NCBI RefSeq assembly: GCF_006715085.1
Contig: NZ_VFMM01000001.1
Coordinates: 2,418,001-2,482,000, forward strand
Length of the DNA stretch: 64,000 bases
Reading direction: 5' to 3'
From: Kribbella jejuensis
Lineage (GTDB): Bacteria > Actinomycetota > Actinomycetes > Propionibacteriales > Kribbellaceae
Part shown: in pieces, positions 8,613-59,632 of the stretch
How positions within the stretch are numbered: position 1 is the first letter of the stretch
Layout of the letters: every line of letters begins with the position of its first letter
Made by a program: the position numbers and the translations under genes
The notes under the pieces: generated by a model
Seen by the model: the letters and a program-made list of their open reading frames with translations, nothing else
Told to the model about the DNA's origin: nothing
Database searches by the model: none

Positions 8613-9647
8613 ATGCCCATCTTCAGACGCCGCCGCCGGAACGCCGTGGAGGCCGACCCGATCGGCGCGTTCTGGTCCTGGTGGACGACCACCGGCAGCG
8701 CGCCCGTCGCGGACGCCGTCGCGCGCCGCGAACCGGGTGACGCGAACGCCGAACTGAACGAGCGGGTCGGCCGGATCCACCCGGACCTGGAGTGGGAACT
8801 CGGGCCCGGCCTGCACGCCGAACACGTGCTGATCGTCACCGCGGCCGGGAACCCGGCGCAACGCGCGACCGCCCGGCGCTGGCTGCGCGCGGCGCCGCCG
8901 TCCGACGACATCTGGGAGTACGCCGATCTGCGCCGCCCCGGCGCTGCCGTGACGATCCAGTTCGAGGGGCTGCCGCCGGTCGCGGTCGACGAGTCGCTGG
9001 TGTCGATCGAGCCGGACTCCGCGTCGGTGCACGTCGGCGTACACCATCCGTCATTCGCGTCGCTGTCGGTGGACGCGCAGCGGCGGGTGACGTTCCTGAT
9101 CCTCGACCTGGTGCTCGGCGAGGAGATGGTGGAGACCTGGGTCGGCGCGATCGACACGCTCCCGGATGCCCCGGCGGACGCCGTACCGGTGATGGAGCTG
9201 CTGCCGGCGGTGGCCGGGTTCGCCGCCGAGCACACGCTGGAGGACGGCAGTCCGGCCTGGAAGATGCTGGAGGGTACTCGCGACGGTCACCGGGTGATCG
9301 CGACGGCCGAGTACCCGCTGCGCTCGATCCGGCGTCCGCACCTCGACACGCATGTGGCGGTGGCGATCCGGTACCCGGTCGTCCGGGAGGACGGCCTGCC
9401 GGAGTCCGAGATGCTCGACGAACTCCGCGCGTTCGAGGACCACCTGACCGACCGGCTCGGCGGCTCCGGCAACCTGCTCGCCCACGAGACCTCCGCCGGC
9501 GTGCGCATCCTGCACTACTACACCGACGGCACCACGCCCGCCGACGCCCAACTCCGAGCCGCCACCACCGGCTGGCCGCACGGGAAAGTCACCGTCACCA
9601 GCACCCCCGACCCCGCCTGGCACAACGTCTCGCACCTGTCCGGCTGA
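8613..9647 (+). CDS. DUF695-domain protein
   Basis: 344 residues from ATG 8613 with Shine-Dalgarno GGGAGAGG. After a short basic N terminus (MPIFRRRRR) comes an acidic, strand-rich region. The last 110 residues (RRPHLDTHVAVAIRYP, LLAHETSAGVRILHYYTDG, WPHGKVTVTSTPDPAW) match the DUF695 pattern, a small fold of unknown function often found beside deacylase-like or regulatory domains. No membrane segment or signal is seen. It is followed 65 bp later by an ECF sigma factor gene on the same strand; the link is unproven. Confidence 0.75.
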   Translation: MPIFRRRRRNAVEADPIGAFWSWWTTTGSAPVADAVARREPGDANAELNERVGRIHPDLEWELGPGLHAEHVLIVTAAGNPAQRATARRWLRAAPPSDDIWEYADLRRPGAAVTIQFEGLPPVAVDESLVSIEPDSASVHVGVHHPSFASLSVDAQRRVTFLILDLVLGEEMVETWVGAIDTLPDAPADAVPVMELLPAVAGFAAEHTLEDGSPAWKMLEGTRDGHRVIATAEYPLRSIRRPHLDTHVAVAIRYPVVREDGLPESEMLDELRAFEDHLTDRLGGSGNLLAHETSAGVRILHYYTDGTTPADAQLRAATTGWPHGKVTVTSTPDPAWHNVSHLSG

Positions 9648-9655
9648 TCCGGGGT

Positions 9656-9682
9656 GCAACCTAGGAGTTCGGCCTTTCCGTC
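9656..9682 (+). promoter_or_regulatory. Candidate ECF-type promoter of the sigma factor operon
   Basis: GCAACC (9656-9661), 17 bp spacer, CGTC (9679-9682). This AAC/CGTC pair is the usual ECF -35/-10 pattern of actinobacterial SigE-like factors and lies 31 bp before the sigma factor start, which suggests autoregulation. Confidence 0.55.
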
Positions 9683-9712
9683 TTGAGGGGGAGATGGAGA
9701 GTGGAGGCGCGG

Positions 9713-10222
9713 ATGGCGGAGCGGGACCGGGAGTTCGTCGAGTTCGTCGAGCAGGCCGGAGCGGGACTGCGGCGGACGGCGTTCCTGGTGTCGGGCGACC
9801 GGCACCGGGCCGACGACATCGTCCAGGACGCGTTCTACCGGCTGTACCTGGCCTGGCCGAAGGTCCGGCGGGTCGGCAACCCGCTGGCGTACGCGCGCCG
9901 GATGGTCGTGAACGCGGCGTACGACGGAAAACGCCGGCCGTGGCGCCGTGAGGTGACGATCGCCGACGTACCGGACACGGTGGCCGGCGACGACTTCGCG
10001 CACGGGTACGCCGAACGGGACGAGGTACTCGAAGCACTGAAGTCACTCGGACCACGGCAGCGCGCGTGCGTCGTACTGCGCTACTACGAGGACCTGTCCG
10101 TCGAGCAGACCGCGGAACTCCTCGGCTGCTCGGAAGGCACCGTGAAGAGCCAGTCGGCACGGGGTCTCGACACTCTCCGACGAGCCATCGACCTCCGGCG
10201 GACGGGCCGGGCGGCGCTGTGA
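9713..10222 (+). CDS. ECF sigma factor of the SigE-like (SigE-family) group
   Basis: 169 residues from ATG 9713 (GGAGG 5 bp upstream); GTG 9701 is an alternative. Region 2 (GDRHRADDIVQDAFYRLYLAWPKV, with the PLAYARRMVVNAAYD helix) and region 4 (LGPRQRACVVLRYYEDLSVEQTAELL plus the GTVKSQSARGL helix-turn-helix) are both complete. It directs RNA polymerase to a small regulon. The stop overlaps GTG 10219, and the membrane protein behind it starts 12 bp later, so the pair looks like a sigma/anti-sigma operon. A matching ECF promoter lies upstream. Confidence 0.92.
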   Translation: MAERDREFVEFVEQAGAGLRRTAFLVSGDRHRADDIVQDAFYRLYLAWPKVRRVGNPLAYARRMVVNAAYDGKRRPWRREVTIADVPDTVAGDDFAHGYAERDEVLEALKSLGPRQRACVVLRYYEDLSVEQTAELLGCSEGTVKSQSARGLDTLRRAIDLRRTGRAAL

Positions 10223-10233
10223 AGGAGAACGAG

Positions 10234-11268
10234 ATGGAAGACGTACGCGAAGTCAGCGCCGAGCTCCACAGGCTCGCCGCCGACGAACCCCTGGAGCCCT
10301 TCGACACCACCCGGATCCTGGAACGCGGCCGCCGTGGCAGGCGCCGCCGCCGGCTTCTCGGCGTCGGCGGGGCCGCGGCCGGCGTGGCTGCCGTGGCGCT
10401 CGTGGTCAGCCTCGTGCCCAACCTGACGGCGGCCGACAAGCAGCCGACCGTCGCGGGGAGTCAGCAGCACAGCGCACTGTTCGAGCCTGTCCCTGGCGTA
10501 CCCAGCGGCGAGGACGGCGCCGATCAGCGGATCAGCAAGGAGGAGGCCACACGGCGGTGCGCGCTGCGGAATCCGCAGGAGCACCGGCAGCTGAGCGCGA
10601 CGGGCGGCTTCCGGTCGGGCAGTCTGACGACGTACGACCTGAAGAACGGTGCCAAGGAGGCGCAGTGCATCATCCCGGGCGGCGACCGGCCCACGGCGGC
10701 GCTGGTCGCGGAGGTGCGGCGGCTGCCGGCGACCGCAGACGTCGCGGGGCAGTTGAAGATCTGCTCGGTGCTGGCCTGGGTCGACGTGACGAACTGGCAG
10801 GTCGTCGCCGTGGACCGCTCGAAGGCGCTCGGTCAGGCCGTCCTGGTCGCGGTGTCACCGTCCGGCCGCAAGGCGATGAGCTGCAACCTGTTGAACGACA
10901 AGACCCTGCTCGGCGGACCTGGCAGCACGAGGTTCCTGACGCTGACCGACATTCGGGGCGACGATCCGGCGCTCGACCCGGCCGACAAATCGGCACGTAC
11001 CGACCTGTACGTGGCCGGCGGCGGTGGCGGGCCCTGCAGCACCGCCAACTGTTCGACGTACAACCTGACCGGCTGGGGACGGGTCGCCTCGAAGGACGCG
11101 ACCGACGTCCGGCTGCGGATCGGCTCCGGGCCGGTGTACAAGGTCCCGGTCAGCAAGGGCGGATGGTTCGCGTTCACCTGGGTGAACACGTCGAGGTCCA
11201 AGCTGAGCGACCACCCGAAAGTCGCCGCGTACGACCGGTCCGGGAAGCTCGTCAAGACCTTCCAGTGA
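10234..11268 (+). CDS. Membrane-anchored partner of the ECF sigma factor (putative anti-sigma/sensor)
   Basis: 344 residues from ATG 10234, preceded by AAGGAG at 6 bp. A short N-terminal cytoplasmic segment (about 38 residues, ending in an Arg-rich stretch) leads into one membrane helix at about 41-60, then a large extracytoplasmic part with about seven Cys, including a CSTANCS pair that could form a disulfide. There is no zinc-binding HxxxCxxC anti-sigma domain. Position directly behind the sigma gene makes a regulatory role likely, but sequence alone does not show sigma binding. Confidence 0.72.
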   Translation: MEDVREVSAELHRLAADEPLEPFDTTRILERGRRGRRRRRLLGVGGAAAGVAAVALVVSLVPNLTAADKQPTVAGSQQHSALFEPVPGVPSGEDGADQRISKEEATRRCALRNPQEHRQLSATGGFRSGSLTTYDLKNGAKEAQCIIPGGDRPTAALVAEVRRLPATADVAGQLKICSVLAWVDVTNWQVVAVDRSKALGQAVLVAVSPSGRKAMSCNLLNDKTLLGGPGSTRFLTLTDIRGDDPALDPADKSARTDLYVAGGGGGPCSTANCSTYNLTGWGRVASKDATDVRLRIGSGPVYKVPVSKGGWFAFTWVNTSRSKLSDHPKVAAYDRSGKLVKTFQ

Positions 11269-16571: not shown

Positions 16572-17490
16572 GCGCCTTGATCCCGGCCAGCGCGGCCTCG
16601 AAGGCGGAGTAGCGCGGACGGTAGCCGAGGAGTCTGGCCGCCTTCTCCATGGAGCAGTTGGGGCTGTGGAGGATGTGGTCGTGGGTGGTCTGCGCGTTGG
16701 GGTTGTCCTTCGCCCATTCCTCCCACGGGTGGTAGGTCAGGTTGGCCTCGTGGCCGTACCAGGCCGAGAGCTGCTCGGCGTACCCGCGGAGCGTGATCGC
16801 GTCACTGGCGACCGCGTGGAAGTTCTCTCCGATCGCGGTGGCGCGGCTGGTGATGGCCGCGGTGAAGAGACTTGCGACGTCCTCGGCATGGACCGGGTTG
16901 ATCGTCTCCAGGCCGAAGTTGGGGAGCTGGAGCTCCTCGCCCTTGGCCAGGGTGTCGTAGACGGCGCGGTCGAAGTTGCCGGCGGGGTTGATCGGCGTCC
17001 AGCCGGGACCGCAGATGTGACCGGGGTGGATCACCGTGACCGGGAGGCCGGTCCGTCGTGCCTCGGCGAGCAGGTACTTCTCGATCGCGGCCTTCTGGAT
17101 CCCGTAGTCACCCCAGGGGCGGCGCGGGGCGTCTTCCGTGGTCGGCACGGTAACACTCGGTCCGTGCACCCAGATCGTGCCGCAGTGCAGGAAGTGCTGG
17201 ACGTTTCCCCGGATGGCCTCGGTGAGCTGCCGAGCACTGTCCTCGGTGAAACAGATCAGGTCCACGACGATGTCGGGCTCGAGCTCCGCCACCCGCCGGC
17301 CGAAGGTGCCCGCGGCATCTTCCGCCTCCCGGTCCACCTGGATCCGGTCGACCTTGTCCCAGGCGGCGTCAGGCTGGTACGCCGTACGCTCGCCGCGGCT
17401 GAGCACCGTGACGTCGTGGCCCAGCTGAACCAGCTGCGGAACGAGATAGGTGCCGATATGTCCGGTACCACCGATGACGACTGTGCGCAT
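16564..17490 (-). CDS. NAD-dependent epimerase/dehydratase family protein
   Basis: 308 residues from ATG 17490. Rossmann motif [13 protein letters not shown] at the start binds NAD(P). The extended-SDR catalytic pair is altered: the region [14 protein letters not shown] replaces the usual YxxxK by YGIQK, which still keeps Tyr and Lys at the right spacing. [17 protein letters not shown] and [11 protein letters not shown] follow the family. The substrate, probably a nucleotide sugar or isoflavone-type molecule, is not evident. It overlaps the convergent Cys-rich gene by 8 bp. Confidence 0.87.
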
Positions 17491-54968: not shown

Positions 54969-55526
54969 GTGGTGAGTGAAGTGTGGGCTGCGCGGACGGA
55001 ACTGACGGCGATCCTGATCACAGTGCCGGAGTTGGCAGCGTTCACGGATCGGTGGCGGTCGGTGTCGCGGTCGTCTGCGCGGCCGCAGGTTCCCTTGACC
55101 GAGCTCATCCCGCCGCATGTGACGGTGCTGGTCCCGTGGGTCGCCGAGCCGACGGAGGCTGATCTGGCGCGTCTTCGGGCGGCGGTGGCCGACGTACCGG
55201 CGTTCGAGCTGAGTTTTCCGAGTGCGGGACAGTTTCCGAACGGTACGGCGTGGTTGAAGCCGGAGCCGTTCGACCAGGTGCGCGGGCTGCTGCGGAAGGT
55301 GTTCGAGGCGTTTCCGGAGTGCCCGCCGTACGGTGGCGAGTTCGCGGAGCCGCATCCGCATCTGACCATCTCGTCGTCCGCTCAGGGTGGTCCGTCCGTT
55401 GTCGCCGAGGCCAACGCCGCACTCGCTGCGACGCCGGCCCCGACGGTGCGGTTGACCGAGCTGGGGCTCTGGCGGGAGGACGCTGAGGGCGTGTGGGAAC
55501 AGTTCGGCGCCGTACCTCTCAGATGA
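54969..55526 (+). CDS. 2'-5' RNA ligase/cyclic phosphodiesterase-like protein
   Basis: 185 residues, GTG start (a second GTG follows). The paired HxTx motifs of the 2H phosphoesterase superfamily are PHVTVL and PHLTIS. Such proteins hydrolyse cyclic phosphates or join RNA 2'-5'. The substrate is unknown. The stop overlaps the methyltransferase start by 4 bp. Confidence 0.88.
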
Positions 55527-56491
55527 CTTTCCGGGACGCGTGGCAGGCGGCGCTCTACGGGCCTGACGGCTTCTACCGGCGGGAGCGCCCAGCTGCTCAC
55601 TTCCGGACGTCGGTCCACGCGTCACCGCTCTTCGGGCAGGCCCTGGCGCGGTTGTCCTTTGAGCTTGACCTCCACCAGGTGGTCGACATCGGCGCCGGCT
55701 CCGGCGAACTCGGCAAGGTACTGCGAGCCACAGGCCTGACTGTCGTCGAGATCGAGTTGGACGACGACCTACCTTCTCAACTGACCGGCCTGGTAATCGC
55801 CAACGAATGGCTGGACAACATCCCGTGTGAGATAGCCGAGTGGGACGACGAAGGCGTCCCCCACTACCTCCTCCCAGACGAGACCCTAGGACCGGTAGTA
55901 GACAGCGAAGACCTCCGTTGGTTGGAACGGTGGTGGCTAAGCAGCCCCGGCGGGGGCGAGGCGTCGCGTAGGGTCGGAGTGCCCGGCGGGGCCGGGTGGG
56001 GCGTGGTGTCGGCGGGAGCTGGCCTGCCCGGTGGGCGGGCTGAGATCGGAGCGTCTCGGGATCAGGCGTGGGCCGACGTCGTCGGGCGGCTTGCGGTGGG
56101 GAGTCTCGCTGTCGCCGTCGACTATGGGCATGTGAGGGAGAACAGGCCGGCGTACGGGACGGTCACGGGGTTCAGGGATGGGCGGGAGTGTGCGCCTGTG
56201 CTGGACGGGTCGTGTGACATCACCGCGCATGTGGCGCTCGACTCGGTGGCGGCGGCGGTGGGTGGGCGGCTGATCTCGCAGCGGGATGCACTGGAAAGCC
56301 TCGGGCTGTCAGCGAGCAGGCCGCCGCTGGAGCTCGCGCATGAGGATCCAGTGCGCTACCTGTCCGAGCTGTCCTCCGCAGGTGAAGCAGCCGAGTTGCT
56401 GGACCCCTCCGGCCTCGGAGCGTTCGGCTGGGTCTGGACCGCGGTCGGCGAGGAGACAAGCCGGCGCGCAGCACGAGCCCTGTCCGCCTGA
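55523..56491 (+). CDS. SAM-dependent methyltransferase of the NDUFAF7/MidA (COG1565) type
   Basis: 322 residues from ATG 55523. SAM motif [15 protein letters not shown] near residue 55; FGQALARL ahead of it; [15 protein letters not shown], the COG1565 counterpart of the NE-D-P block; and a C-terminal [10 protein letters not shown]...[13 protein letters not shown]. The mitochondrial member methylates complex I subunit NDUFS2 on Arg85. Unusually, about 40 glycine-rich residues are inserted at 145-185. The 3' end overlaps the PH-domain gene by 136 bp. A lone nuoD follows about 2 kb on. Confidence 0.87.
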
Positions 56492-57762
56492 GCCTCCACC
56501 AGCGCCGCAGCCGCCACCTCGTCCTGGTGAAGCGCCACAGCATCAGTGGGACCGAGCGGCGTATCCACATGCACGTTGGCCAACCGCAGCCGCCGCTGCA
56601 GCGGGCCCTGCTCCAACCGCACCGACTGCGTCTTGTGGTGCAGCACAATCGACGTACGCCGGCTGATCCACCCGCGCGTAGTCACCATCACCTGCTCGTC
56701 CACGCCGTACGTGAGGTACCGCCAGCCGATCGGCCGCAACCACTTCGCCCGCTCCGGCGACGGATGCAGCTCGATCCGGCTCAGGTCGAACCCAGGCAGG
56801 ATCCGGCCGAGCACGTACGCCATCTCGGCACGGTCACCGACCGGCAGCAGCTGCGCACCCTCCATGTGGTCGTCGGCGTCGTCCTGTTTGCCGGCCACGC
56901 CGGCGATGTCCAGCTCGACCCGCGACCAGCCCAGCAACCGCCAGATCAACGGCTCAGTGATCAACAGACCCTGTACGCGCCCAGGCGGAATCGTCTGCCG
57001 CTGTACGTCGAACAGCCCGCGCTTGGTGCGCAGTCCATGGCTGGACTCCGACAGCGTGAACCCGTGGTTCCCCACGACCTGTTTCCAGATCGGCTGCACG
57101 ACGCCGAGCAGCAGCGGCAGACCGGCGAACAGACCGACATGGAAGTTCAGCACCATCGTCGCCACGATCAGCCAGATCAGGGCGCCCGCACTACCGACCA
57201 CGGTCGACGACAGCAGCGTCGCACCCAGCAGACGGCTGGTAGGAACTGTCAGCAGCGGCGGAGCAACCGCCTCCGCCTGCTGCTCGACGTCCTGCTGTTC
57301 GGCAGCCTGCTCCCCCTTCGCCCGGACCAGCAGGGTGGTGCGGAGCTGCTGCGCCTCGTCGTACCGGAAGTAGCTGAGCTTGCCGTCGCTCTTGCCGCCG
57401 CCGGCCACGTCCATCCGCAGCTCGGCCATGCCGAACAGCCGCGCCACGAACGGCTGCGCCACGTCGATCGCCTGGATCCGGTCGAACCGGATGATCCGCG
57501 TCCGCCGGAACAGGAACCCGCTGTCCACCCGGATCGCGTCGGCTGTCAGCTGCCACTTGGTGAACCACCAGGACAGTGCGCCGAGCAGGATCCCACCGAT
57601 GAGCACCGCACCCAGACCGATGCCGGCCACCGTCAGGTTCTGCCGGAGTCCTTCGTTGTTGACCAGGGCGACGGCCGCGACGACGAAGTACCCCCAGCCC
57701 TTCACGAACGGGGTCAGTGGATGGAGCCGTTCCCCGACGGTCTCCACAGCTTGCTGCGTCAC
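56356..57762 (-). CDS. Membrane protein with repeated bacterial PH (bPH_2) domains
   Basis: 468 residues from GTG 57762, coupled to the upstream PH gene by GTGA. Two helices at about 25-40 and 50-70, then a bPH_2 domain ([19 protein letters not shown]), another membrane pair, and further bPH_2 units ([34 protein letters not shown] and [23 protein letters not shown]). The layout is that of YdbT-type proteins, which in Bacillus help protect against bacteriocins. The 3' end overlaps the methyltransferase gene by 136 bp. Confidence 0.83.
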
Positions 57763-58247
57763 AGGCCCCACGCCTGCGATTGGCCGAGGGCAGAGAGGCG
57801 GTCACGCAGCCGGCCGGCCTCGTCCGGATGCAGCCCGGGGATCTTCGCGTCGGTGGCCGGGGTCGCGGTGTGCAGCTCGACCGTGGCCAGCCCGTACGCG
57901 CGCTCCAGCGGCCCGGCGGTGACGTCGACGAACTGCATCCGCCCGTACGGTACGACGACCAGCTCGCGGAACATGATCCCGTGGCTGACCAGCAGCTCGT
58001 CCTCGCGCTCGGCGTACTTCCAGGACCGCTGGTTGCGCCCGATCAGGACCCAGGCCCAGCCGAACGCCAGCGCGATCAGCACGACCGCGAGTACGCCGTA
58101 CCCCCAGCCGAGCGTCAGCCCGAGTACCACCAGCGCCACGATCGCGGCCAGGCCGGCGAAGATCGCCGCACTCAGCCGCCGCAGCGTGGCCAGCTTCGGC
58201 GAGACCGGCGTCCAACTGACATCCGAGGGTGCGAAGAGGTCATCCAC
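57759..58247 (-). CDS. Small PH-domain (bPH_2) membrane protein, YdbS-like
   Basis: 162 residues. Two helices (about 28-65) lead into a PH domain: REDELLVSHGIMFRELVVVPYGRMQFVDVTAGPLER and a VELHTATPATDAKIPGLHP tail. It pairs with the larger PH-domain protein in an operon, as YdbS/YdbT do in Bacillus. It is divergent from nuoD across the 58266-58432 hairpin. Confidence 0.86.
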   Translation of the reverse strand: MDDLFAPSDVSWTPVSPKLATLRRLSAAIFAGLAAIVALVVLGLTLGWGYGVLAVVLIALAFGWAWVLIGRNQRSWKYAEREDELLVSHGIMFRELVVVPYGRMQFVDVTAGPLERAYGLATVELHTATPATDAKIPGLHPDEAGRLRDRLSALGQSQAWGL

Positions 58248-58265
58248 GGGTCCAGCCTGTCACGA

Positions 58266-58432
58266 AAGTGTGCCGTGAACGGTGAAGGTTGAGTGCTGCT
58301 GGCGTCCAGGTGCGTGCATCGCAAGGCGGAGGAGCGTCCTCGATGCGGGTTTCATCGTGGACGCTCCTCCAACGCAGCGAGGTGCGTGCCTGGGCGTCAG
58401 CAGCGCCAAGCTGCACCGTTCACGGCACACTT
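58266..58432. repeat. 167 bp imperfect inverted repeat (long hairpin) before nuoD
   Basis: A long cruciform-capable element: 19 bp perfect terminal arms (AAGTGTGCCGTGAACGGTG at 58266-58284 and its complement at 58414-58432), a middle arm (58294-58310/58389-58405, with two mismatches), and a perfect 12 bp inner stem (GGAGGAGCGTCC, 58328-58339/58359-58370) capped by CGATG/CATCG. Six bases separate it from the nuoD ATG. It resembles a MITE-like or regulatory element; no target duplication is visible. Confidence 0.75.
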
Positions 58433-58438
58433 AGGGTC

Positions 58439-59632
58439 ATGAGCACCGAAAGAGTGGTTGGAGTCGGGGCGGGAGCTGCTGGATTCGACCCCGCGTACGA
58501 GCGGGGTGGAGCCGGTACGGACCTGCCGACGACCGACATGGTGCTCAACATCGGGCCGCAACACCCGGCGACGCACGGCGTACTGCGGCTGCGGCTGACG
58601 CTGGACGGGGAGCGGATCGCGGGCTGCGAGCCGATCATCGGCTACATGCACCGCGGCGCCGAGAAGCTCTTCGAGGTCCGCGACTACCGGCAGATCATCG
58701 TCCTGGCGAACCGGCACGACTGGCTGTCCGCGTTCGCCAACGAGCTCGGCGTCGTCATCGCCGTCGAGCGGATGATGAACCTCGAGGTCCCCGAACGTGC
58801 GGTCTGGCTGCGGACCCTGCTCGCCGAGCTGAACCGGGTGCTGAACCACCTGATGTTCCTCGGCTCGTACCCGCTCGAGCTCGGCGCGATCACGCCGGTG
58901 TTCTACGCGTTCCGCGAGCGCGAGACGATCCAGGCGGTGATGGAGGAGCTGTCCGGCGGCCGGATGCACTACATGTTCAACCGGGTCGGCGGGCTGAAGG
59001 AGGACCTGCCGTACGGCTGGCTCGGCCGCGCGTCCGCCGCCTCCGCCGCCGTCCGCAAGCGGCTGCCCGACATCGAGGAGATCATCCTCGGCAACGAGAT
59101 CTTCCGCGCCCGGACCGTCGGCGTCGGCAAGCTCTCCCCCGAACTCGTCGCGCAGTACGGCGTGTCCGGCCCGATCGCGCGTGCCTCCGGAGTCGACGCC
59201 GACCTGCGCCGCGACGAGCCTTACCTCGCGTACGGCGACCTGCAGGACGTACTGCGAGTGGTGACCCGCCCCGAGGGCGACTGCTTCGCGCGCTTCGCCG
59301 TACTGCTCGAACAGGTGAAGGTGTCGCTCGACCTGGTCGACGCCTGCCTCGACAAGCTCCGCACGCTGCCGGCCGGGCCGGTGAACGTGCGGCTGCCGAA
59401 AATCCTCAAGGTCCCCGAGGGGCAGACGTACGCGTGGACCGAGAGCCCGCTCGGCATCAACGGGTACTACCTGGTCTCCCGCGGCGACAAGACCCCGTGG
59501 CGGCTGAAACTCCGCTCGGCGAGCTTCAACAACATCTCCGCGCTGCCCGCCCTGCTGCCCGGGACGATGATCCCGGACATGATCGCGATCCTCGGCAGCA
59601 TGTTCTTCGTCGTCGGCGACATCGACAAATAG
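58439..59632 (+). CDS. NuoD-like NADH dehydrogenase subunit D paralogue (lone gene)
   Basis: 397 residues from ATG 58439. It aligns with the complex I 49 kDa/NuoD subunit: [34 protein letters not shown]-like region [12 protein letters not shown] and the C-terminal GDIDK. The quinone-site His46 is kept and Arg72 matches the bovine Arg85 methylation site, but the quinone-site Tyr (bovine Tyr108) is Trp95. No other nuo gene is nearby. It probably is a second, standalone NuoD as found in Streptomyces. The role in respiration is uncertain. Confidence 0.9.

Follow-up and report, generated by a model that had tools for sequence, protein, structure and literature searches.

A tryptophan-bearing NuoD of Kribbella jejuensis as the probable displaced D subunit of a second complex I of 11 subunits, with a linked MidA/NDUFAF7-type methyltransferase

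A 64,000-nucleotide stretch of the Kribbella jejuensis genome (contig NZ_VFMM01000001.1, positions 2,418,001 to 2,482,000; hereafter, the window) carries a gene, nuoD2, for a 49-kDa subunit of complex I (NuoD2, or D2), and 1.9 kb upstream of it lies a gene for a protein methyltransferase of the MidA/NDUFAF7 type. In human cells, NDUFAF7 methylates Arg85 of the NuoD-type subunit NDUFS2, as reported in PMC3829151, and Paracoccus NuoD is described in PMC8042128 as likewise methylated at the equivalent Arg. Why should a NuoD gene stand at such a distance from other complex I genes and so near to such an enzyme? The original prediction, made from the window alone, was of an isolated paralogue, perhaps a regulatory or alternative-acceptor subunit, matured by its neighbor. 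Our comparative analysis instead makes it probable that NuoD2 belongs, as the D subunit, to a second complex I of 11 subunits that lacks NuoE, NuoF, and NuoG, and that its Arg72 is most likely dimethylated by the linked MidA/NDUFAF7 homologue.

NuoD2 matched 54 distinct Protein Data Bank (PDB) sequences, mostly 49-kDa subunits, and it belongs to the NuoD family. Alignment with chain 4 of the solved Thermus thermophilus complex (offset -8) equates its Trp95 with Tyr87 and its His46 with His38. Alignment with the mouse NDUFS2 precursor (offset +46) leads to Arg85 and Tyr108 once a leader, which we take to be 33 residues long, is subtracted. The codons and the structural alignment agree, and they bear out the initial reading that His46 and Arg72 are kept and that the equivalent of Tyr108 is a Trp, encoded by TGG. 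Only one of the two quinone-contacting residues is thus retained, and on its sequence NuoD2 is a variant of the 49-kDa family with a non-canonical quinone site.

We searched the 7.5-Mb genome for the NuoD, NuoB, NuoH, and NuoA families, and found two members of each. NuoD2 was the sole match to these four families within the window, and its one counterpart elsewhere in the genome is the housekeeping NuoD, whose nuo cluster is at 2335-2345 kb. The second NuoB, NuoH, and NuoA are at 2283-2296 kb, where no NuoD was found. The description of NuoD2 as lone therefore holds for its locus, in which no other nuo family was matched, but not for the genome, which contains a second nuo set. On a single strand, this set comprises A2, ~8 kb of other open reading frames (ORFs), B2, C2 (overlapping B2), two unrelated genes, H2, two more unrelated genes, I2, J2, K2, L2, and two further antiporter-type genes. 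These ten non-D subunits lie 180-200 kb from nuoD2. A2, B2, and H2 were called by Pfam, as were the Fer4 domains of I2 and the antiporter domains of L2; C2, J2, and K2 were called from ORFs by eye and, used as queries, matched their counterparts in intact operons. The two further antiporter-like genes were found by tblastn, which does not distinguish M from N. With D2 from the window included, the full complement of 11 (A to D and H to N) is present. NuoE and NuoG had no match in the second set of this genome (L010, L287, and L288 among our fetched loci) or in loci L170-L175, L180-L185, L189, L232, and L234, in local rather than genome-wide searches in which NuoF was not a query. NuoB2 has the LACC, GSC, and PGC motifs that hold the ligands of iron-sulphur cluster N2, and NuoI2 has the Fer4 and dicluster domains expected of a carrier of two 4Fe-4S clusters. 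By eye, the genes that interrupt the set (G000:C1:2275-2296 kb) include one acetyltransferase-like and one NmrA-like gene between C2 and H2 and, between H2 and I2, two genes of which one is sigma-factor-like.

The second set lacks only D, and relatives reveal where D belongs. In two of them (L232 and L234), A-B-C-H-I-J-K and three antiporter genes are contiguous, and D alone is missing, between C and H. In deeper Actinomycetota, a Trp-type NuoD fills that very slot, giving A-B-C-D-H-I-J-K, in 13 regions chosen from among the D2 matches (L170-L175, L180-L183, L185, L186, and L189; a further one, L184, ends after H). In four of these operons (L171, L172, L173, and L174), the methyltransferase gene follows shortly after the last antiporter gene, and neither nadB nor panC was matched there. 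In four other loci (L176-L179), the methyltransferase is beside D2, and no other nuo gene was matched on the stretch. In the window lineage, D and the methyltransferase occur together in a nadB-panC neighborhood. Since the deep regions have D in its slot and, in four of them, the methyltransferase after the antiporter genes, we suggest that both are old companions of the second set; in the window lineage, the two are found elsewhere and yet near each other. A displaced subunit fits these arrangements better than an isolated, perhaps regulatory, paralogue, and from gene content the best reading of NuoD2 is not an orphan but a D subunit that, though displaced, completes a second complex I of 11 subunits.

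A pair of facing residues in NuoD and NuoB also speaks to the partnership. PMC8042128 reports that the NuoD-type subunit of T. thermophilus differs from that of most other complexes in having Thr in place of this Arg, and that Arg83 of its NuoB-type subunit, Nqo6, fills the space of that Arg; the corresponding residue in Yarrowia is Thr. The housekeeping NuoD of K. jejuensis reads HTG, with Thr at the methylation site, and the housekeeping NuoB has Arg at the Nqo6 Arg83 position. NuoD2 reads HRG, and NuoB2 has Thr at that position. Among the distinct NuoB copies fetched, Thr was found in all 39 that are closest to NuoB2, and Arg in all 18 from actinobacteria that most resemble the housekeeping NuoB. 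Two outgroup NuoB proteins (Paenibacillus and Pararhizobium) have Thr and are paired with an Arg-type NuoD. Because the NuoB residue mirrors the Arg/Thr switch of NuoD, D2 would pair with NuoB2 on structural grounds. The comparison with the housekeeping NuoD of the same genome, which the original prediction had proposed, thus came out as Thr-Tyr there versus Arg-Trp in NuoD2. Because the housekeeping protein has Thr, D2 is the only NuoD in the genome to offer the methyltransferase its known target, and for the same reason the enzyme may serve only the second complex I.

The Trp of NuoD2 is not a local peculiarity. Among 222 distinct NuoD copies, we found 164 Arg-Trp, 34 Thr-Tyr, 24 Arg-Tyr, and no Thr-Trp combinations; since the loci were fetched mostly by similarity to D2, these counts speak to fixity within types and not to how common the types are. 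Every one of the 164 copies that group with D2 in the tree had both Arg and Trp, and the remaining 58 had Tyr. A tree of 83 NuoD sequences set the 46 Trp-type rows (D2 and 45 others) apart by a branch with support 100/100, and the 15 Thr-Tyr rows by another (100/99). A tree of all 222 copies in which the three key positions were masked also placed the 164 Arg-Trp copies on one side (99) and the 34 Thr-Tyr copies on one side (100). Sorting by identity gave a similar picture: all 34 copies at least 48% identical to the housekeeping NuoD were Thr-Tyr, and the 153 copies at least 46% identical to D2 comprised 152 Arg-Trp and 1 Thr-Tyr. Because the Trp-type copies all lie on one side of one branch, a single change between Trp and Tyr fits this sample, with its direction awaiting a root; both trees are unrooted, and the rows of one family, which we call f2, are long branches of unsure placement. 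Within the genus, NuoD2 proteins are 87-97% identical. PMC8119997 treats the quinone Tyr as strictly conserved and gives it a central part in proposed mechanisms of proton transfer. By sequence, the Trp clade is an exception to that rule, a natural replacement across a lineage. Outside the phylum, three plasmid-borne NuoD proteins (Paenibacillus, Halobaculum, and Pararhizobium) all have Tyr, a comparison confined to these and a few PDB alignments. Since both complexes presumably share one menaquinone pool in the cell, the type of quinone is unlikely to explain the Trp. The expectation that Trp would be fixed in this type of NuoD was thus confirmed, and the quinone site is indeed altered, although as the mark of a whole clade and not as a change particular to this locus.

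We then assessed the distribution of the methyltransferase. Across the 117 genomes of the order, NuoD at least 77% identical to D2 and NuoB at least 82% identical to NuoB2 occurred in the same 50 genomes, though all 117 have at least one NuoB. The methyltransferase family, PF02636, was present in 55 of the 117, all with a D2-type NuoD; they are the 50 just mentioned plus 5 genomes of family f2, in which a more distant D2 lies directly beside the methyltransferase. Expressed otherwise, of the 73 genomes that have a D2-type NuoD 55 also have PF02636, against 0 of 44 others, the latter including two (G023 and G071) that each list four weaker NuoD-like matches without their places, and G071 has two NuoB. 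A single-protein search gave three weak methyltransferase matches (G014, G041, and G082), none of them among the PF02636 matches. In a draw of 246 genomes from the phylum, 57 had both, 26 had D2 only, 11 had PF02636 only, and 152 had neither, i.e., 57/83 versus 11/163 (Fisher p 1.7e-24, kinship ignored). The 83 D2 genomes were delimited by a cut at 44% identity (E about 1e-101), so that some within the set, among them G152 and G137, are counted by identity and not by a Trp that was read, whereas the first row below the cut (G333, L197) was read as Arg-Tyr. Where both genes occur, they share a contig in 38 of the 57 genomes and lie within 12 kb in 35. Furthermore, tblastn found the methyltransferase in 72 of 80 named loci (from Kribbella, Streptosporangiaceae, Actinomadura, Streptomyces, Kitasatospora, Aeromicrobium, and others), upstream on the same strand in 58 and downstream and convergent in 14. 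Of the 8 loci in which tblastn did not find it, 6 are under 15 kb, and the longer L112 and L129 count as misses. The original expectation that COG1565 genes co-occur with this NuoD type is thus upheld in the order and in the phylum, and the proposed maturation of NuoD by the neighboring enzyme is a partnership that comparative genomics supports well. In some deep families (f19, f34, and f50; e.g., L180, L182, L183, and L185), A-B-C-D-H-I-J-K-antiporter sets with an Arg-Trp NuoD were seen with no PF02636 match.

As for the enzyme itself, the window protein alone matched Pfam Methyltransf_28 at E 9.6e-10. A profile of 26 methyltransferase sequences matched 4F3N (COG1565; 3e-22), 1ZKD (COG1565/DUF185; 2e-16), and 5ZTZ (an NDUFAF7 homologue; 4e-9). 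Its AlphaFold model has a mean predicted local distance difference test (pLDDT) score of 89, and the six best PDB matches of the model are COG1565/MidA structures (E 7e-16 to 3e-12; the next, 2e-3). Residues 147-163 are of low confidence in the model and fall within an insert that is mostly absent from the other 25 aligned sequences. The family alignment conserves a glycine-rich motif and an N-E-x-x-D segment, both of which have roles in methyltransferases of this kind. Pfam, profile, and model thus concur with the assignment to the COG1565 type made at the outset. The likeness to NDUFAF7/MidA extends from fold and profile to the Arg target kept in the linked NuoD. Compared with the solved NDUFAF7/MidA chains, the window enzyme is shorter (322 versus 387-432 residues), only 16-22% identical and, if the Thr of the housekeeping NuoD is a guide, restricted to the second complex I. 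Given its fold and its linkage, it is likely to be the dedicated arginine-methylating enzyme of NuoD2.

We propose the following sequence of events. The second complex would be built of A, B, C, D, and H to N without the NADH module E/F/G, a type found deep in Actinomycetota. Before or while NuoD2 meets NuoB2, the methyltransferase would most likely dimethylate Arg72 beside cluster N2, as NDUFAF7 does in human cells. This methylation could stabilize N2 and the joint between D and B, locking D2 to NuoB2, with its Thr at the facing position. Electrons from a donor would then pass through NuoI2 and NuoB2 to quinone in a pocket with Trp for Tyr. The composition of the set, the empty D slot, the B/D residue switch, the fixed Arg and Trp, and the co-occurrence and linkage are read directly from sequence; we infer that D2 assembles with the second set, that Arg72 is methylated, and that quinone is the acceptor.

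Family f2 appears to hold a reduced version of the system. All 12 f2 genomes examined have two NuoB and only one NuoH. In the 8 f2 regions fetched (L279-L286, ~8900-11100), the second set reads NuoB-NuoC-NuoI, and membrane-arm queries had no match in these regions. In one genome (G048), NuoI and NuoB are 104 and 132 residues long versus 182 and 185 in the window genome. All 12 second NuoB proteins read retain the CC motif. The f2 NuoD2, located apart from the B-C-I genes, has Thr, Ala, Pro, or Ser in place of His46 in 11 of 11 copies read, and keeps Arg72 and Trp95. The second set of f2 is therefore likely, as far as gene content indicates, to be a membrane-less B-C-I-D module that has lost quinone binding. 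Because Trp persists where His46 is lost, there are hints that its role is not only in quinone binding. Tentatively, and with somewhat less than an even chance in our estimation, the findings can be joined into one account: an old, separate complex I clade of Actinomycetota would use Trp instead of the conserved quinone Tyr, with N2 tuned by a clade-specific methyl-arginine, and f2 (probably Propionibacteriaceae) would have stripped it to a soluble B-C-I-D iron-sulphur module for non-quinone redox chemistry.

Several observations weigh against the reading of NuoD2 as a quinone-reducing subunit methylated by its neighbor. The persistence of Trp in f2, with neither the quinone His nor a second NuoH found, means that Trp may serve something other than quinone binding. 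PF02636 is missing from 26 of the 83 phylum D2 genomes, with Arg kept in those read, and from 18 further f2 genomes with a second NuoD 38-45% identical, 6 of which were read and are all Arg-Trp; therefore, either Arg is retained without this enzyme family or another enzyme serves. When the D2 loci of six f2 genomes that lack PF02636 were searched for the N-E-x-x-D motif, there was no match, a weak negative since the same search missed three loci (L051, L053, and L054) in which tblastn finds the enzyme. Conversely, 11 phylum genomes have PF02636 without D2, and the 7 that were read (all except G205, G292, G312, and G359) have an Arg-Tyr NuoD. Among 14 named control genomes, NuoD is present in 11 and PF02636 in 3, and E. 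coli has NuoD, with the Arg kept, without PF02636. Finally, the methyltransferase and nuoD2 do not form one operon in the window, being split by two opposite-strand genes, and they are convergent in the 14 loci counted above. Some of these points would be accommodated if the methyltransferase acted on another substrate, its closeness being an inherited neighborhood, which nadB and panC share, and its co-occurrence reflecting shared ancestry. The two genes are separate transcription units in many relatives too, and the genomes are related, so the Fisher p value overstates independence. However, the link survives changes of layout, being seen upstream on the same strand, downstream and convergent, directly upstream in f2/g2, and after the antiporter genes of four deep operons. 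Moreover, the nearest structural relatives of the enzyme include a MidA/NDUFAF7 homologue whose human member is reported to methylate this very Arg (PMC3829151), and wherever the NuoD of a PF02636 genome was read, it was of the Arg type. We regard this alternative as unlikely. A neighborhood by mere chance was considered as well and was discarded on account of the co-occurrence, the linkage in the named loci, and the deep-operon placement.

Two other explanations concern NuoD2 itself. It is full-length with intact N2-side motifs in a genome that also has the housekeeping cluster, and under certain conditions it might take the place of that cluster's NuoD in the 14-subunit complex I and thereby give the enzyme a different quinone site. 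In that case, however, its Arg would face the Arg of the housekeeping NuoB, whereas NuoB2 offers Thr; in addition, D2 and NuoB2 keep to the same 50 genomes of the order, and the second nuo set lacks D alone. We find such a swap very improbable, and the residue clash between B and D led us to reject it. We give equally little credence to NuoD2 being a decaying or moonlighting paralogue that is no electron-transfer subunit any more. Its gene does stand apart from the other subunits, f2 copies have lost the quinone His, and the copy of one close relative (G002; L049, 9475-10678) is in two reading frames (residues 1-314 and 312-397), through a frameshift or a sequencing error. Nevertheless, the high identity within the genus, the Arg and Trp in every D2-side copy, and the ten other second-set subunits in the genome speak against decay, and we rejected this candidate on the strength of the identity and the fixed Arg-Trp pair.

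The proposed 11-subunit complex with D2 has known counterparts. Complex I-like enzymes of 11 subunits (nuoABCDHIJKLMN), as in Desulfitobacterium and the cyanobacterial and chloroplast NDH-1, share with our deep lineages the A-B-C-D-H-I-J-K-antiporter order without E/F/G. Their electron donor is given as unknown in PMC11238625, and it is equally so for the second complex here. Unlike them, the complex described here has Trp for the quinone Tyr, a linked MidA-type methyltransferase and, in the window lineage, a displaced D; cyanobacterial NdhH has Tyr at the Trp95 position in the PDB alignment. The housekeeping NuoD of 14-subunit complexes (Actinomycetota and Thermus) belongs to the same subunit family (40% identity over residues 26-321) but combines His-Thr-Tyr with a NuoB Arg, whereas NuoD2 combines His-Arg-Trp with a NuoB Thr. 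Neither a Trp-type NuoD nor its linkage to a methyltransferase was found in the titles and abstracts of the literature searched, a scope outside of which most subscription papers fall. Each part is thus of a known kind; as far as our searches show, the novelty lies in the variants, namely the Trp clade and its linked methyltransferase, the displacement of D, and the derivative without a membrane arm. A large natural Trp clade whose cells also contain a Tyr-type complex I allows the role of the quinone Tyr to be tested. The genome also offers a natural experiment on arginine methylation, with an Arg-type NuoD and its linked methyltransferase, a Thr-type NuoD that lacks the target, and the NuoB residue in mirrored form. 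Annotation gains as well, since actinobacterial nuoD genes that look like orphans (at least 581 confirmed stretches) can be placed in a specific complex. The features of the window are listed in Table 1.

Table 1. Positions in the window of nuoD2, its key codons, the methyltransferase gene, and the genes between them
Feature	Position	Strand	Basis or remark
NuoD2 (D2), 397 residues, ATG start	58439..59632	+	PF00346 Complex1_49kDa, E 1.3e-71
NuoD2 His46 codon CAC	58574..58576	+	T. thermophilus His38, quinone contact
NuoD2 Arg72 codon CGC	58652..58654	+	Bovine NDUFS2 Arg85, NDUFAF7 target in mitochondria
NuoD2 Trp95 codon TGG	58721..58723	+	T. thermophilus Tyr87 / bovine Tyr108, quinone head-group contact
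MidA/NDUFAF7-type (COG1565, PF02636) protein methyltransferase	55523..56491	+	Pfam, profile, AlphaFold fold
bPH_2 protein, neighbor, no claim of system membership	57759..58247	-	Pfam; between methyltransferase and nuoD2
Protein with bPH_2 domains, neighbor only	56356..57771	-	Pfam; adjoins the 57759..58247 gene

Kribbella loci keep the two opposite-strand bPH_2 genes (56356-58247) beside nuoD2, as do many loci from Actinomadura and Streptomyces. A second nuo set also exists in Streptomyces. One genome of our collection has, beside its own two NuoD, an extra Thr-Tyr NuoD (L228; G081:C1:141300-142900) that is 78% identical to the housekeeping NuoD of the window genome. Elsewhere in the window, ARAGORN placed one tRNA of undetermined type at 16726-16809.

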